From: Paraflavisolibacter caeni
Lineage (GTDB): Bacteria > Bacteroidota > Bacteroidia > Chitinophagales > Chitinophagaceae
DNA length: 64,000 nt
NCBI RefSeq assembly: GCF_025628885.1
Contig: NZ_JAOTIF010000015.1
Coordinates: 1-64,000 of the forward strand
Reading direction: 5' to 3'
The notes under the pieces were generated by a model. It was not told the origin of the DNA. It saw only the letters and a list, made by a program, of their open reading frames with translations, and did no database searches. Made by a program: the position numbers and the translations under genes. Positions 286 through 49,325 of this stretch are shown here, piece after piece. The number at the start of each line of letters is the position of its first letter. The first letter of the stretch is position 1.

Positions 286-424
286 CCTGGCACTTGATTA
301 CATCAGCCTCCCGAAATCCGAAATCCCATATCCGAAATCTCAATATCCTCAATATTAACTCCCCACCAAGCTCCCTACGTCCATCTCCCAACTTTGCCAT
401 AACTTAGAGTAAAACGGTTGCTTT

Positions 425-7932: not shown

Positions 7933-8307
7933 ATGGCAACAATTAATATGACCGCCCAGGAATTCAAGGATCAAATATTTGATTATGAGCAGGCAAGTGA
8001 ATGGGAGTATAAGGGACAGCTACCTGCTATCATTGATTTTTATGCAGATTGGTGTGGACCTTGCAGGAGTGTTGCTCCTGTATTGGATGAACTGGCAACT
8101 GAGTATAATGGCAAGTTGATGATCTATAAAATTGATACTGACAAAGAATCTGAATTATCTCAATTATTCGGAATACAAAGTATTCCTACCTTTTTATTTA
8201 TTCCTGTTCAAGGCACTCCAATGATACAGAAGGGTGCTATTCCTAAAAATGCATTCAAGAAGATTATTGAAGAACGTTTGCTCCAAGGTGCAACCAAAGA
8301 AGAATAA
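7933..8307 (+). CDS. Thioredoxin-family protein
   Basis: A 124-residue cytoplasmic thioredoxin-fold protein with the WCGPCRS active site in the usual context, IDFYADWCGPC. The cis-proline loop is visible as GIQSIPTF. An in-frame ATG at 7897 would place the start inside the preceding terminator, so the ATG at 7933 is chosen. It carries about 15 more N-terminal residues than a minimal thioredoxin such as the one at 9462, and the loop before the active site is slightly longer. It would act as a general protein disulfide reductase. It is followed by 700 bases of repeat-bearing spacer and appears to be transcribed alone. Confidence 0.9.
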   Translation: MATINMTAQEFKDQIFDYEQASEWEYKGQLPAIIDFYADWCGPCRSVAPVLDELATEYNGKLMIYKIDTDKESELSQLFGIQSIPTFLFIPVQGTPMIQKGAIPKNAFKKIIEERLLQGATKEE

Positions 8308-8486
8308 TGTTGATCTGGAGATTGGGAGAATAGGATGTTTGTATGCAGGAATAGTCAGGTAGATGGATTGGGGTACCGGTATTCTGAGGAATTCATAAAA
8401 GGGTGAAAAGGAATCAGGTATCTGTAAATGAAGGGAATGTTGGATATTGGGATATTAGGGTATTGGTTGGGCGATAAATGGTTTTC

Positions 8487-8540
8487 TAGGCTCAAGTACG
8501 GCTAAGATACGGCTAATGTACGGCTCAAGTACGGCTCAAG
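8487..8540. repeat. 11-bp tandem array, TACGGCTCAAG type
   Basis: Five units: one 10-mer TAGGCTCAAG followed by four exact 11-mers TACGGCTAAGA, TACGGCTAATG, TACGGCTCAAG and TACGGCTCAAG. It lies in the 8308-9016 spacer, which holds no supported gene. Confidence 0.85.
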
Positions 8541-8574
8541 GGTTAGGGGAGCAGGGAGGGGGTGAAATCTGTTT

Positions 8575-8651
8575 CGTGCACTAAGTATACTTGAAGTATG
8601 CTTGAAGTGTGCTTGATCTATACACCAAACCTACTCCAGCTATGTAAAAGA
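8575..8651. repeat. 11-bp tandem array, TATGCTTGAAG type
   Basis: Seven consecutive 11-mers. The best preserved are TATACTTGAAG (8586), TATGCTTGAAG (8597) and TGTGCTTGATC (8608); the outer units are more decayed but keep the period. Confidence 0.75.
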
Positions 8652-8715
8652 GAGTAGATTAGGGGGGATTTGGGATGCTGAGGTAATTAAATACCAGACT
8701 GATAGCGCAGAAACT

Positions 8716-8781
8716 GATAGGCTCAGGTAGGCTTAGATAGGGCGTAGGTACGGTGTAAGTAGGGAGTTAGTAGGGCGGAGT
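8716..8781. repeat. 11-bp tandem array, TAGGGnGTAGG type
   Basis: Six consecutive 11-mers, among them TAGGGCGTAGG (8738), TACGGTGTAAG (8749), TAGGGAGTTAG (8760) and TAGGGCGGAGT (8771). The consensus is close to that of the array at 19184-19205. Confidence 0.85.
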
Positions 8782-8957
8782 AACGAGGAGAAGGGAATGT
8801 TGAATGATTCGAATGAGAAATAGCAGATGCAGGGGACAAAACAGGTCAAAAGCGATCTGAATGGCCATGGGGTTGCGGTAGATAATTGGAGATGGAAATT
8901 GCGGCCTAAATCTTAGGAGGATATATTATTGGACGTTTTCTAATGCGCATGAATAAA

Positions 8958-9000
8958 AGGATCAGGTAGGGTTGCTGGAGCAATTGCCGTATCTGATCCT
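8958..9000 (-). terminator. Terminator of the trx-rhodanese operon
   Basis: AGGATCAG at 8958-8965 pairs with CTGATCCT at 8993-9000. Read on the minus strand the stem is followed by TTTTATT, just past the rhodanese stop. Confidence 0.65.
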
Positions 9001-9016
9001 TATGTAGAATAGTTTT

Positions 9017-9436
9017 CTAATTAGAGGATTTACCGCTTGATTTTTCCCATTTAGCATAACCATTTTCTAATTGGTCAACTCTTTTGAAGCCGTTGCTCAG
9101 CATATATTGGGTGGCTTTGTTGGAGCGATTACCACTTTTGCAATATACCAGGTAGTGCTTGTTTTTGTCAAGAGCATTCACCTGTTTGGCAAAGGTGCTG
9201 TCCTTATAGTTGATCAAAATAGATCCAGGTATATTCCCTGAATTATATTCTTCAGGAGTTCGTACATCCAGGATCACTACATTCTCCTTATTCATCTGGC
9301 GCTTGAACTTCTTCTGACTTATGACATTTACCTTTTTGCTGGAATCGGCAATATGCTGAGCTGAGGATAGAACAGGCGTTAAAGAGCATATCAAGACCGT
9401 AAGAATAAGAACTATGTGAAACTTGAAGGATTTCAT
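9017..9436 (-). CDS. Exported rhodanese-like protein
   Basis: A 139-residue protein with a signal peptide of about 27 residues (ending in LSSAQ) and one rhodanese domain. The active-site loop is YCKSGNRS with the catalytic cysteine at C99. The ILDVRTPEEYNSGNIPGS segment is the classic first rhodanese motif. It probably carries a persulfide or acts in sulfur transfer or redox chemistry in the periplasm; the acceptor is unknown. The gene starts 25 bases after the thioredoxin gene that precedes it on the same strand, so the two are almost certainly co-transcribed. This pairs a cytoplasmic thioredoxin with a periplasmic sulfurtransferase. Confidence 0.88.
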   Translation of the reverse strand: MKSFKFHIVLILTVLICSLTPVLSSAQHIADSSKKVNVISQKKFKRQMNKENVVILDVRTPEEYNSGNIPGSILINYKDSTFAKQVNALDKNKHYLVYCKSGNRSNKATQYMLSNGFKRVDQLENGYAKWEKSSGKSSN

Positions 9437-18800: not shown

Positions 18801-19310
18801 AAGTGTTCTATTATTTATTGAGTCGCCTAGTTTATAGGAATCGTCTGGTTCCTAATTACGAACTTCTCATCGCTAGTCTAAATTACTGACATCCATGCAT
18901 AAATGAATTAATGAATTGAAAAGTTTGGCAGGGGAAGGGAAATGAATGACGAATGGGAGAAAGGTAAAGTGAGGGGGGCAAAACTTGGCAGGTGGGGGTT
19001 GGTTTTGTACCTTTAGGCTTAGTTCCCTTGACTTCGTTCAGGGCTTTTTAGGGCGTTCTGCCTGTAGGTTGATTTCCCCTTATTTATGAGCATTTGCTGC
19101 ATTCAGATCGAAGCATAGTCGAAAGATGGTCGAAGTAGCCTAGGCTTAGGTACGGCCGATGTACGGCTTAAGTACGAAGTAGGTAGGGAGTAACTATGGA
19201 GTAAGCTATAAGGTTGGGGTGGAAATTGTAAAATATAAAATCGCGGGCTTGTGGAAGGGAAGAAAGAGGAATTTGAAGGATATGACAAAGGAGAAGGGGA
19301 TGCAGGACCT
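18801..19310. other. Intergenic region carrying an 11-bp array
   Basis: Spacer between ppk1 and the heptose adenylyltransferase gene, which lie on the same strand. No gene or RNA is seen. The ppk1 promoter should lie near 18,801-18,900. The rest is G-rich spacer with the periodic array listed separately. Confidence 0.6.
19108..19205. repeat. Degenerate tandem array, 11-bp period
   Basis: Three 11-mers of TCGAAGnATnG type (19108, 19119, 19130), one 10-mer TAGGCTTAGG (19141), then five 11-mers: TACGGCCGATG, TACGGCTTAAG, TACGAAGTAGG, TAGGGAGTAAC and TATGGAGTAAG. The middle units match the array at 8497-8540 and the last two match that at 8760-8781. Confidence 0.85.
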
Positions 19311-45726: not shown

Positions 45727-45761
45727 TTATGTTTTAAAAATTAAATTATCAACCCTTTTTG

Positions 45762-48700
45762 ATGACGGTAACGAAGCAAAATACTCATTCTTACACAACA
45801 ACCTGCTGTTATTGCGGAGTGGGTTGTGGTATCGTGGTAAATAAGGATAAAAAAGGAAATATTACTGTAGAAGGTGATAAAAATCATCCGGTTAATAGGG
45901 GTATGCTCTGTAGCAAAGGAATGAATTTGCACTATGCTGCCAATGATAAAACCGACCGCTTGTTGTATCCCCAGGTTCGTTTTAATAAAAACATGCCACT
46001 CCAAAGAGTAGGATGGGATATGGCCCTGGAGCGGACAGCAGCAGTTTTTAAAACATTTATCAATAAATATGGTCCTGATTCGGTTGCATTTTATGTATCT
46101 GGTCAGTGCTTAACAGAAGAGTATTATGTTATCAATAAACTGATTAAAGGTTTTATTGGAAGTAATAATATAGATACAAATTCCCGCCTGTGCATGAGTA
46201 GCGCTGTTGTTGGTTATAAAATGGCATTAGGTGAAGATAGCGTACCTGTTTGTTACGACGACATTGAGTTGGCTGATTGTTTTTTTGTAACAGGAGCTAA
46301 TCCTGCCTGGTGTCATCCCATATTATGGAGAAGAGTGGAGGCACACAAGGCTGCAAATCCAAACGTAAAAATTATTGTAGCCGATCCCCGGAAAACGGAT
46401 ACCTGCTCTATAGCAGATGTGCATCTGCAAATCAATCCAGGAACGGATATCACCCTTAACCATGCAATAGGCCGGCTGCTCATTGAGAATGGAGATGTGG
46501 ATTTTGATTTTATTAAAAACCATACTGAAGGCTTTGAGCAATACAAGCAAATTGTTTTTAGTAAAACGCTGTCTGAGGCTGCCAAAATATGTGGCATATC
46601 AGAAGAGGATATTCAATTGGCCGCACGGCATATAGGCAATGCCAAAGGGTTCATTACCATGTGGACAATGGGATTGAACCAAAGTGCCGTTGGTGTCAAT
46701 AAAAATTTAAGTTTAATCAATCTCAATTTAATTACGGGTCATATAGGAAAACCCGGATCGGGACCTTTTTCGCTTACCGGCCAGCCCAATGCCATGGGTG
46801 GGAGAGAAGTAGGTGGGCTGGCTAACATGTTGCCAGCGCATCGAAACCTGGCCAACCCCGCTCATCGTAAAGAAGTGGAAAACTTCTGGGGGGGCACTGC
46901 CATAGCTGATAAGCCAGGACTCACTGCTACCGAAATGTTCGAAGCCCTGAACAGTGGCCGGTTAAAAGCGATCTGGATCATTTGTACCAACCCTCTTGTA
47001 AGTATGCCTGATGTGCGTATGGTGGAAGAGGGTTTGAAAAAAGCAAAATTTGTTGTGGTGCAGGATGCAAGCAACAAGCCGGAAACATTAAAATATGCAG
47101 ATGTTATATTGCCTGCGGCGACGTGGACAGAGAAGGAAGGCACTATGACCAATTCTGAGCGTCGCATCAGCTATTTGAATAAAATAGTAGATGCTCCCGG
47201 GGAAGCATTGCCTGATGCTGAAATTATCTGCCGCTTTGCCCAAAAAATGGGATACCATGGTTTTGACTTTCCAGATTTTTCAGCTATTTACGATGAACAC
47301 GCGCGACTGACAGCCGGAACTAACATTGATATTACTGGTTTGAACTATCAAATCATCAAAGAAAAGAAAACTGTTCAATGGCCCTATCCTCAACACGAAA
47401 CAGGAAGAGGTACACAGAGACTTTTTACAGATAAGATATTCTATACACCTTCCAGGAAAGCTATTCTTCATCCAGTTCCGGACGAGATCACTAGTGAAAA
47501 GCCGGACGCAGACTTTCCTTTTATTCTGACAACTGGCCGGATTCGCGACCAGTGGCATACAATGAGCAGGAGCGGAAAGGTAAATAAGCTAAAGCAACAT
47601 ATTGCACAGGCTTTCATTGAAATAAATCCTGAGGATGCACGCCGTTTAAACATCAAGGAAGATGATGTTGTAGATATTCGTTCCAGAAGGGGCGAAGTAA
47701 GGGTAAAGGCCAAACTAACAACGGGAATTAAAAAAGGTGTAGTGTTCTTGCCTATGCATTGGGGTAAGATCCTGGGTAATGATTTAAACCGCACTAATAA
47801 TGTAACCAGTAGTTTGGTGGATCCTCTTTCAAAGGAACCTGATTTCAAATTTTGTGCAGTACATGTAGAAAAATATCAAAAGCCAAAGCAGCGCATTGTT
47901 GTGATTGGTGCAGGTGCCGGTGCTTTTGGCTTTGTCAAGTCCTACCGCGAAGTGAATCAAGATGATGAGATCATCATCTTCAGCAAAGAGAATTTTCCTT
48001 TTTATAACCGTGTGATGTTACCTGATTACATCAGTGGTGTACAAAGTTGGGATCAGCTGGTGAAGATGAAGGATGAAGAAGAACCTGGCTATAATATCCG
48101 GTTGTTACGCGGTGTAAGTGTTGAAAAAGTGGACAGGGAGCATAAGTGTGTTATCGACTCCAATGGTAATACTACATATTACGACGTTTTGATAATGGCC
48201 ACAGGGAGCCGTGCTGCTGTACCGAAAAATGTACCCCAAATGCAGGGGATATTTACGATGCGTAGCCGCACTGATGCCGACAATTTTATCAATCATGTAC
48301 CTAAGGATGGTCATGTAGTGATTGTTGGAGGTGGGCTATTAGGTTTGGAACTGGCTGCATCCCTGCGAGAGGTTGGTGTTCGAATTACCATTATTCAACG
48401 CATTTCCCGTTTCCTGGACAGGCAATTAGATATTCTTGGCAGCCAGTTGCTGCACGAAGAAATGGTGGACCAGGGTTGCGATATTTATTATAATGATGAA
48501 GTGCAAGTGTTTTATGGGCAGGAACAACTGACGGGCATTCGATTGAAAAGCGGACAGTATATTGAGTGCAATGCTATGGTACTTGCAATTGGCACAGTTC
48601 CCAATATTGAACTGGCAAGAGAATGTGGGTTGGCTTGTCAGCGGGGTGTAATCGTGAATGAGCGTCTGCAAACCAGTGACCCTAACATTTTTGCAGTTGG

Positions 48701-49325
48701 AGAGATTGCTGAATTCAAAGGTTTCCTTTATGGTATTACTGCAGCTGCAGAACAGCAGGCCGATATCGTTGCAAAGAATTTGCTCGGCGACATTGCTGCA
48801 TGCTATGATGGTAGCTTGTTGATGAACATAATCAAAATTCATGGTTTTGATTTGTGTAGTGTCGGCATTCCTGAAAGGCTCAATGAAACAGACTATGAAG
48901 AAATTACATTCATCGACAGGGCAAAACGCTATTATAAAAAATGTATTATTCACCAGGACCGCCTGGTTGGAGCAATTTTGATTGGAGACAAGGCTGAATT
49001 TCAGGAATTCAAGGAACTTATAGCAAAGAAAACTGAGCTCAGTGAAAAGCGCTTGCAATTGCTTCGTAGTGGTAGTAAGGCAGAGCCGGTGCTGGGTAAG
49101 CTGGTATGTAGCTGTAATAGTGTTGGAAGTGAAAATCTCAAAAATAAAATAGCAGAAGGCTGCACAAATTTTAAAGATCTGTGTGCTCAGACTGGTGCGG
49201 GAACAGGCTGCGGTTCTTGCCGGCCGGAAGTGCAAAGAATTTTAGAAGAAAGCCTATCTCAAAATATCGATTTCGAAGGATTAAAAAGGATAGAAGAAAA
49301 AATGAAAGTAATGGCTGATCGCTGA
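45762..49325 (+). CDS. nasA: Assimilatory nitrate reductase fused to its FAD/NAD(P) and [2Fe-2S] electron-transfer module
   Basis: A 1187-residue three-part enzyme that reduces nitrate to nitrite. Residues 1-690 are a NarB/NasA-type molybdopterin oxidoreductase: the [4Fe-4S] ligands are C15, C18, C22 and C50, the molybdenum ligand is C144 in SRLCMSS, and the C-terminal dinucleotide-binding part shows TTGRIRDQWHTMSRSGK. Residues about 705-1040 are a pyridine nucleotide-disulfide oxidoreductase like NirB's N-terminus (VVIGAGAGAFGFVKSY, VIVGGGLLGLELAASL, IFAVGEIAEF). Residues 1112-1165 are a BFD-like [2Fe-2S] domain (LVCSCNS, GAGTGCGSC). Bacillus has these as separate NasC and NasB. The chain thus holds a complete NAD(P)H-to-nitrate path. 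The ATG at 45762 follows a TTG in frame. Confidence 0.93.
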   Translation: MTVTKQNTHSYTTTCCYCGVGCGIVVNKDKKGNITVEGDKNHPVNRGMLCSKGMNLHYAANDKTDRLLYPQVRFNKNMPLQRVGWDMALERTAAVFKTFINKYGPDSVAFYVSGQCLTEEYYVINKLIKGFIGSNNIDTNSRLCMSSAVVGYKMALGEDSVPVCYDDIELADCFFVTGANPAWCHPILWRRVEAHKAANPNVKIIVADPRKTDTCSIADVHLQINPGTDITLNHAIGRLLIENGDVDFDFIKNHTEGFEQYKQIVFSKTLSEAAKICGISEEDIQLAARHIGNAKGFITMWTMGLNQSAVGVNKNLSLINLNLITGHIGKPGSGPFSLTGQPNAMGGREVGGLANMLPAHRNLANPAHRKEVENFWGGTAIADKPGLTATEMFEALNSGRLKAIWIICTNPLVSMPDVRMVEEGLKKAKFVVVQDASNKPETLKYADVILPAATWTEKEGTMTNSERRISYLNKIVDAPGEALPDAEIICRFAQKMGYHGFDFPDFSAIYDEHARLTAGTNIDITGLNYQIIKEKKTVQWPYPQHETGRGTQRLFTDKIFYTPSRKAILHPVPDEITSEKPDADFPFILTTGRIRDQWHTMSRSGKVNKLKQHIAQAFIEINPEDARRLNIKEDDVVDIRSRRGEVRVKAKLTTGIKKGVVFLPMHWGKILGNDLNRTNNVTSSLVDPLSKEPDFKFCAVHVEKYQKPKQRIVVIGAGAGAFGFVKSYREVNQDDEIIIFSKENFPFYNRVMLPDYISGVQSWDQLVKMKDEEEPGYNIRLLRGVSVEKVDREHKCVIDSNGNTTYYDVLIMATGSRAAVPKNVPQMQGIFTMRSRTDADNFINHVPKDGHVVIVGGGLLGLELAASLREVGVRITIIQRISRFLDRQLDILGSQLLHEEMVDQGCDIYYNDEVQVFYGQEQLTGIRLKSGQYIECNAMVLAIGTVPNIELARECGLACQRGVIVNERLQTSDPNIFAVGEIAEFKGFLYGITAAAEQQADIVAKNLLGDIAACYDGSLLMNIIKIHGFDLCSVGIPERLNETDYEEITFIDRAKRYYKKCIIHQDRLVGAILIGDKAEFQEFKELIAKKTELSEKRLQLLRSGSKAEPVLGKLVCSCNSVGSENLKNKIAEGCTNFKDLCAQTGAGTGCGSCRPEVQRILEESLSQNIDFEGLKRIEEKMKVMADR

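Follow-up and report, generated by a model that had tools for sequence, protein, structure and literature searches.

Tandem arrays of 11-bp units in Paraflavisolibacter caeni, best read as modules of a dispersed intergenic element

Introduction

Short tandem repeats in the gaps between bacterial genes are usually ascribed to slippage. More complex are the BOX elements, modular and dispersed repeats composed of boxA, boxB and boxC, in which the number of middle repeats varies and the middle unit is larger than those considered here. Within the Bacteroidota, the MITE BrickBuilt of Porphyromonas gingivalis is made of a 23-nt unit of one kind; it carries IS5-like terminal inverted repeats, is always intergenic and is present in 19 copies in one strain, and its authors report it from P. 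gingivalis and P. gulae (PMC4596501). Tandem direct repeats of 11 bp have been described as the operators of CarH, where three to five repeats of the form nnnnTnnACAn are found at carotenoid promoters and are bound by an oligomer on one face of the DNA (PMC9304148). The locus analysed here lies in a 64,000-nt stretch of DNA (hereafter the window; G000:C7:1-64000) from a genome of 7.01 Mb in 89 contigs (G000), for which a preliminary description had reported three intergenic arrays with an exact 11-bp period. These arrays are best read as modules belonging to a non-coding element that is dispersed through intergenic DNA and has multiplied in G000.

Array loci in the window

The arrays are found between two genes that we take, from reading their translations by eye, to encode a thioredoxin and a rhodanese (the names ppk, rfaE and flippase used below were assigned in the same way). 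The features of this gap are as follows:

Ends at 8307: thioredoxin gene
8487 to 8540, + strand: B-type array, unit TACGGCTCAAG, about 5 units; lag-11 identity 0.79; maximal lag-11 segment 8489-8540, score 27
8558 to 8580, + strand: short non-periodic module GGGGTGAAATCTGTTTCGTGC preceding the C-type array; resembles other copies (L121, L124, L129)
8583 to 8616, + strand: C-type array with about 3 clear units of TATGCTTGAAG; maximal lag-11 segment, score 19; weak tail to 8651; resembling stretches at L040, L046 and L055
8716 to 8781, + strand: E-type array, unit TAGGGNGTAGG, about 6 units; lag-11 identity 0.56; maximal lag-11 segment 8730-8775, score 19
Ends at 9017, opposite strand: rhodanese gene

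All three arrays are real at the positions first reported: their segment scores of 27, 19 and 19 compare with a top score of 14 in 1000 first-order Markov shuffles of the intergenic DNA (8308-9016), and elsewhere in the lag range 5-30 the identity is 0.11-0.42, lag 22 excepted. The middle array had been given as 8575-8651, over which the lag-11 identity is 0.55; its period is strong at 8583-8616 and weak in the tail to 8651. A search for homologous loci with the rhodanese gene returned one distant locus only. The original list of arrays proved incomplete, as two further loci of the window, at about 139-280 (GAGACCTTATA units followed by CTCCGTANNTA-like units) and at 19108-19204, also carry them:

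147 to 212, + strand: D-type array, unit GAGACCTTATA, about 6 units; TRF score 101 for 147-207; resembling stretches at L045, L051 and L057
213 to 261, - strand: E-type units directly after the D-type array; one lag-11 segment, 147-261, covers both
18960 to 19107, + strand: non-periodic leader of the best-defined copy of the element; 40 scored copies including this one
19108 to 19136, + strand: A-type array (TCGAAGGATGG-like, with a GRAGGAT core in other copies), 2-3 units
19137 to 19204, + strand: B- and E-type units (TACGGCTTAAG, TAGGGAGTAAC), in a block order common to L040, L052 and L053

No Rfam family matched the 64-kb window above its gathering score. Repeats of 7, 8 and 14 bp (CCGAAAT, GGATATTG, GAAGTTT and others) adjoin several of the 11-bp elements, as at window positions 311-348 and 8442-8466, at L040 8512-8625 and at L053 13306-13353. 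Elsewhere in the window, within a nitrate/sulfate assimilation cluster, positions 45759-49325 hold an open reading frame of 1188 amino acids, which, judged by its translation, presumably joins a molybdopterin nitrate reductase to a NirB-like one.

The 11-bp period across the genome

A lag scan of 464 kb of G000 (400 kb from contig C1 together with the window; segment score at least 14) yielded 21 lag-11 segments at 14 loci and 17 segments at lag 22, with nine at lag 7. The lag-11 excess is thus present elsewhere in the genome, its 21 segments standing against one at lag 9, none at lag 10, three at lag 12 and none at lag 13, and extrapolation gives a total of about 300 arrays in G000. None of the 21 segments overlaps a gene, as called by a home-made codon-usage caller with a coding fraction of 0.85-0.87, which agrees with the initial statement that the arrays are not coding repeats; nor are they a CRISPR, the units being contiguous with no unique spacers between repeats. 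The unit TACGGCTTAAG contains TAA on both strands, and its 11-bp array therefore has stops in all frames, a property of this unit and not of every unit type. Seven of the 14 loci lie between co-directional genes, five between divergent and one between convergent genes, and the last abuts the window edge, a distribution approximating that of the intergenic bases in each class (43.3 kb co-directional, 17.1 kb divergent and 7.5 kb convergent). When a B-type 17-mer was searched with two mismatches allowed, G000 gave 70 matches, some of them overlapping, against none for the reversed control; in 293 other genomes of the family it gave at most five per genome, the control reaching nine.

A leader followed by blocks of units

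The best-defined copy of the element, at window 18960-19135, joins a non-periodic leader of about 148 bp to the first units, and a search with it returned 66 candidates, of which 40 were scored, its own locus included. Identity is 87-93% where the match comprises the leader and first units only, and 76-85% in the other copies, where the match extends through the arrays. Of the 30 fetched copies, 29 turn periodic at leader position 146-151, and the exception (L139) reaches a contig end. An all-against-all comparison revealed a block order shared between loci, which in the fuller copies runs leader, A (TCGAAGGATGG), B (TACGGCTTAAG), E (TACGGAGTAGG), a short linker, C (TATACTTAAGG) and tail. The distance from A to B is 22, 33, 44, 55 or 77 bp (2-7 units) and that from B to the first E-like match is 22-99 bp, each a whole number of units in 29/29 copies; the B-to-C distance has the same residue modulo 11 in 10/11 copies and the D-to-tail distance in 9/9. 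A sizeable share of the copies is flanked on the left by 7-bp repeats.

That the period is kept better than the sequence, as had been remarked of the three arrays, is descriptively correct, given that both of the first two intervals change by whole units in all 29 copies. As an argument for selection on spacing it is weak, since the adjoining leader, which is not repetitive, likewise shows very few indels once homopolymers and the alignment edge are set aside: of 40 leader indels, 18 fall at the alignment edge and 20 in or beside homopolymers, and the two that remain lead, by our own arithmetic, to a prediction of only about 2 to 4 indels in the arrays. An indel-rate test (P about 2e-13; 1e-38 by substitutions) was withdrawn, as the leader indels on which it drew fall mostly at the edge or at homopolymers. 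Searches in distant mode gave no match in phages for window 8300-9016 and none in plasmids for window 18960-19210, and viral contigs held no exact match of one B-type pattern; a phage, plasmid or viral origin was rejected on these searches.

Insertion between rfaE and ppk

One copy can be compared with a nearly empty site. In genus relatives the flippase gene and rfaE precede ppk; sixteen relatives had a ppk match and 11 of their loci were fetched, in 10 of which rfaE lies beside ppk. The rfaE-ppk gap is 3, 37, 38 and 59 bp by gene calls in four relatives; in six others, measured from the ends of alignments, it is some 15-140 bp. In G000 it is 510 bp and contains the element. No lag-11 array was found at the ppk locus in any of the 11 relatives, and since the two genes are almost adjacent there, the arrays at this site in G000 arrived with an insertion between them. 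As a separate observation, G000 has three polyphosphate-kinase-like matches (C7, C34 and C22, at 100, 66 and 34% identity), compared with one in each of the 16 relatives with a match.

Arrays in other genomes

A degenerate B pattern was found in 34 of 396 genomes of the order, G000 included. As this 28-mer, searched with three mismatches, gives background single matches in both directions, only multi-copy genomes were counted; at least five matches were present in G015 (61), G000 (56), G518 (17), G547 (17), G549 (11), G552 (8), G020 (5) and G227 (5), and the reversed control reached this number in G589 (27) and G587 (10). A stricter B pattern, applied to a phylum-wide draw of 395 genomes, matched G000 and two others once each, a result that says little on the range of the arrays, as the draw contained 18 other genomes of the order, all without a match. 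Arrays of 11-bp units were observed in G015, G549, G552, G547, G020 and G436, in DNA fetched partly around pattern matches. In G063 an A block and, behind it, another 11-bp block share one strand. By eye, two B-like units come after an A-like array in G015, as they do in G000, and the DNA ahead of the G063 and G238 arrays is unlike the G000 leader. The arrays of G549 include 10-bp units, with segments at lags 10 and 21, which speaks against the reading favoured here. Three loci of G549 (L145, L147 and L148) with mixed 10- and 11-bp units have a common boundary, GTCGACGCTAGTGGGA, with one mismatch in L148. Short 11-bp-periodic elements in G020 (L190-L197) are in some cases bounded by ATATACCAT and ATGGTAT-like ends, possibly a small terminal inverted repeat.

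In 780 kb from 20 genomes of the family, a sample that is non-random (mostly genomes seen in earlier match lists) and less biased than stretches centred on pattern matches, 43 arrays were found at lag 7, 22 at lag 8, two at lag 11, one at lag 12 and none at lags 9, 10 and 13. Genomes G009 and G109 supply 28 of the 43 lag-7 and 17 of the 22 lag-8 arrays. Both lag-11 arrays resemble unit families of G000 by eye, namely GGCGGNTTATA in G979, of the same genus, and GATCGTCCGAG in G060. Lags 7 and 8 outnumber lag 11 in this sample, and the 11-bp period is therefore lineage-specific and one of a few favoured periods. The 7-bp and 8-bp arrays are dense in G009 (L244, L262) and G109 (L234, L252), and several of them are inverted pairs a short distance apart (e.g. 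L244 3330-3393 and 3426-3475).

Core and pitch across the family

An 11-bp pattern of the A type gave 74 matches in 12 other genomes compared with 12 control matches in three, the reversed control being multi-copy in G063 (10). The pitch was then left open in a search of 394 family genomes for three ATCCTYC cores separated by gaps of 1-9 bases, which gave 135 matches in 29 genomes, of which 92 were listed (at most 10 per genome). Among the matches listed, 77 of 92 have gaps of exactly 4 and 4, an 11-bp pitch, and any other gap pair occurs in at most three rows; once overlapping rows are merged, 53 of 68 arrays have this pitch, or 44 of 59 without G000. Again among the matches listed, the 11-bp pitch extends over 18 of the 29 matching genomes, 11 genera and 35 linkers. 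The concentration of this core at 11 bp is solid. The reversed core matched 141 times in 16 genomes, genus g71 supplying 117, a comparison of totals, the pitch of the control matches lying outside the listing. As the control total is close to that of the pattern, totals do not show the core to be special; that ATCCTYC is special relative to its reversal is supported by its spread over genomes (29 compared with 16). The reversed core is repeated in genus g71 (G1034, 56; G1017, 36; G1050, 22), which may be another tandem unit family.

Related arrays at 11-bp pitch, with the short cores GRAGGAT and CGGNNTA and varying linkers, are present in other genera of the family. The conservation of an 11-bp spacing, as first suggested, holds in so far as a 7-bp core recurs at this pitch across the family and the four linker bases vary; it has to be set against the greater frequency of lags 7 and 8 in the sampled family genomes.

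DNA or RNA

Elements with inverted arms allow the DNA and RNA levels to be compared. In the B-type element of G547, two arms built of 11-bp units flank a TATATA centre. In 14 elements, units 1-5 of the arm closer to the typed consensus fit NNCGGNNTANN in 100, 100, 100, 100 and 93% of cases and unit 6 in 0%, a fit that arises partly by construction, as this arm was picked by its similarity to the consensus, and partly from plain homology; units 1-6 of the other arm fit in 100, 100, 79, 14, 36 and 7%. Complementarity between the arms is 0.94 in unit 1, which is too uniform to carry covariation information, and 0.57-0.60 in units 2-5, compared with 0.56-0.64 in units 2-5 when arms are swapped between elements. 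Since arms of the same element are no more complementary than swapped ones, it is not pairing that units 2-5 preserve, and an RNA stem was rejected for the outer arms of G547, with no covariation beyond unit 1. An RNA stem was likewise rejected for the element of the window, whose folding z values are 0.38 and -0.90 relative to shuffles.

In genus g6 the inverted arms fold at -75 to -45 kcal/mol in five of six tested elements, a range obtained without a shuffle control. Here 12 of 16 classifiable loci (20 examined) lie between convergent genes. The comparison is with 80 kb of G547 only, where 3 of 27 gaps of at least 100 bp are convergent (Fisher P 3.6e-5) and hold 22% of the bases of these gaps. 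No such bias was found in G000, where one of 14 loci is convergent. DNA bending or curvature, initially proposed as one cause of the regular spacing, finds little support: the first harmonic of G+C within the unit is 0.131 in 44 arrays compared with a permuted mean of 0.110, and AT/GC phasing was set aside as unconvincing.

Interpretation and rival explanations

Several results combine in favour of a dispersed MITE-like element: the lag-11 excess, confinement to intergenic DNA, similar leaders, a shared block order, differences by whole units and the near-empty ppk site. Whether the units of such an element also serve as DNA motifs, each contacted about once in a helical turn, is a question on which we regard the chances for this combined reading as evenly divided. 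Copies of the element, typically a leader of about 148 bp with blocks of tandem 11-bp units, occupy gene gaps of any orientation, and slippage or unequal recombination would alter the number of their units. Like CarH, an oligomeric protein might contact one face of the DNA and recognise the core about once in each helical turn, and would keep pitch and core whilst the linkers drift; it could be a host chromosome-binding or regulatory protein, or the protein that moves the element. We infer both this binder and a mobilising enzyme, the former from a core held at one 11-bp pitch with 35 linkers in 11 genera and from the G547 arms without covariation. A core and pitch that recur across genera with a varying linker are what a protein-read array is expected to look like. 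A bolder form, in which these are family-wide chromosomal operator arrays (GRAGGAT and CGGNNTA cores, 11-bp pitch, free linkers) for a hypothetical one-face oligomer, dispersing as a modular element, is tentative and in our view rather unlikely; if true, it would give the Bacteroidota a new system of sites for organising the chromosome or for global regulation. If a binder exists, G000 would carry hundreds of its sites, by extrapolation.

The main rival is a selfish, BrickBuilt-like MITE with a functionless minisatellite, its pitch inherited from one ancestral unit through slippage and transposition and its cores alike by homology, which we consider possible though short of probable. It would account for unit numbers that change by whole units, for dispersed similar copies and the insertion at ppk, and for unit-order variants shared between genomes, CGAAAGAT being by eye the second unit in G000, G063 and G238; the scarcity of non-homopolymer indels in the leader also fits it, as does a reversed control whose total is as high as that of the core pattern. 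It explains less readily one pitch with so many linkers in the matches listed, the less conserved G547 arm, which retains NNCGGNNTANN in units 1-3 with the other bases differing, and the G063 and G238 arrays that follow DNA unlike the G000 leader. If there is no binder, the arrays would be a clean case of a minisatellite-bearing dispersed repeat that has retained its unit length over long evolution. A hairpin or terminator acting at the RNA level, REP/BIME-like and with an 11-nt pitch fitting A-form RNA, is retained as a lesser alternative on account of the bias towards convergent genes in genus g6, where the arms of most tested elements also fold; the lack of arm covariation in G547, the window's unremarkable folding and lack of an Rfam match, and the mostly co-directional and divergent loci of G000 make it improbable. 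A REPIN-like element moved by RAYT (REP-associated tyrosine transposase) would likewise be dispersed and intergenic, and G547 has a palindromic centre, but the RAYT domain (Y1_Tnp, PF01797) had no match in G000 or G547, whilst 5 of 14 control genomes matched, with one match in G015 and six in G549, and this origin is very improbable. Recent slippage of one arbitrary unit at a single locus, which the preliminary description had named as the explanation to exclude, is scarcely credible: tandem repeats do vary in number, but the same B-type unit is present at dozens of places in G000, several unit families follow one order, and the same cores are found in other genera.

Comparison with known systems

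No description of 11-bp intergenic arrays in this group was found from titles and the start of abstracts, a search in which subscription literature is thinly covered. The CarH operators share with the present arrays tandem 11-bp direct repeats, a short fixed core and free bases (PMC9304148), and in this respect the protein contact with one DNA face first suggested for these arrays has a precedent, the binder here being a putative one. The TnnACA core of CarH was found in at least half of the units in 0 of 21 arrays, and no triple of it at 11-bp pitch was present on either strand in 464 kb of G000; CarH itself is therefore an unlikely reader. With REP/BIME and REPIN sequences and their RAYTs (PMC3733652, PMC2817692), the arrays have in common a dispersed, intergenic distribution and, in genus g6, a palindromic form and a location chiefly where genes converge; they differ in being tandem 11-bp units and not one palindrome of 20-40 bp. 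The BOX elements of pneumococcus (PMC3049150) belong to another phylum, as do the TAACTGA repeats of marine Beggiatoaceae, which are likewise abundant, intergenic, short direct repeats, though with a 7-bp unit (PMC4679880). BrickBuilt is similar in its Bacteroidota host, its intergenic and multi-copy distribution and its plan of leader, spacerless tandem units and tail; the element described here differs from it in having 11-bp units of several kinds in a shared order, about 300 arrays by extrapolation, and relatives of its arrays in other genera (PMC4596501).
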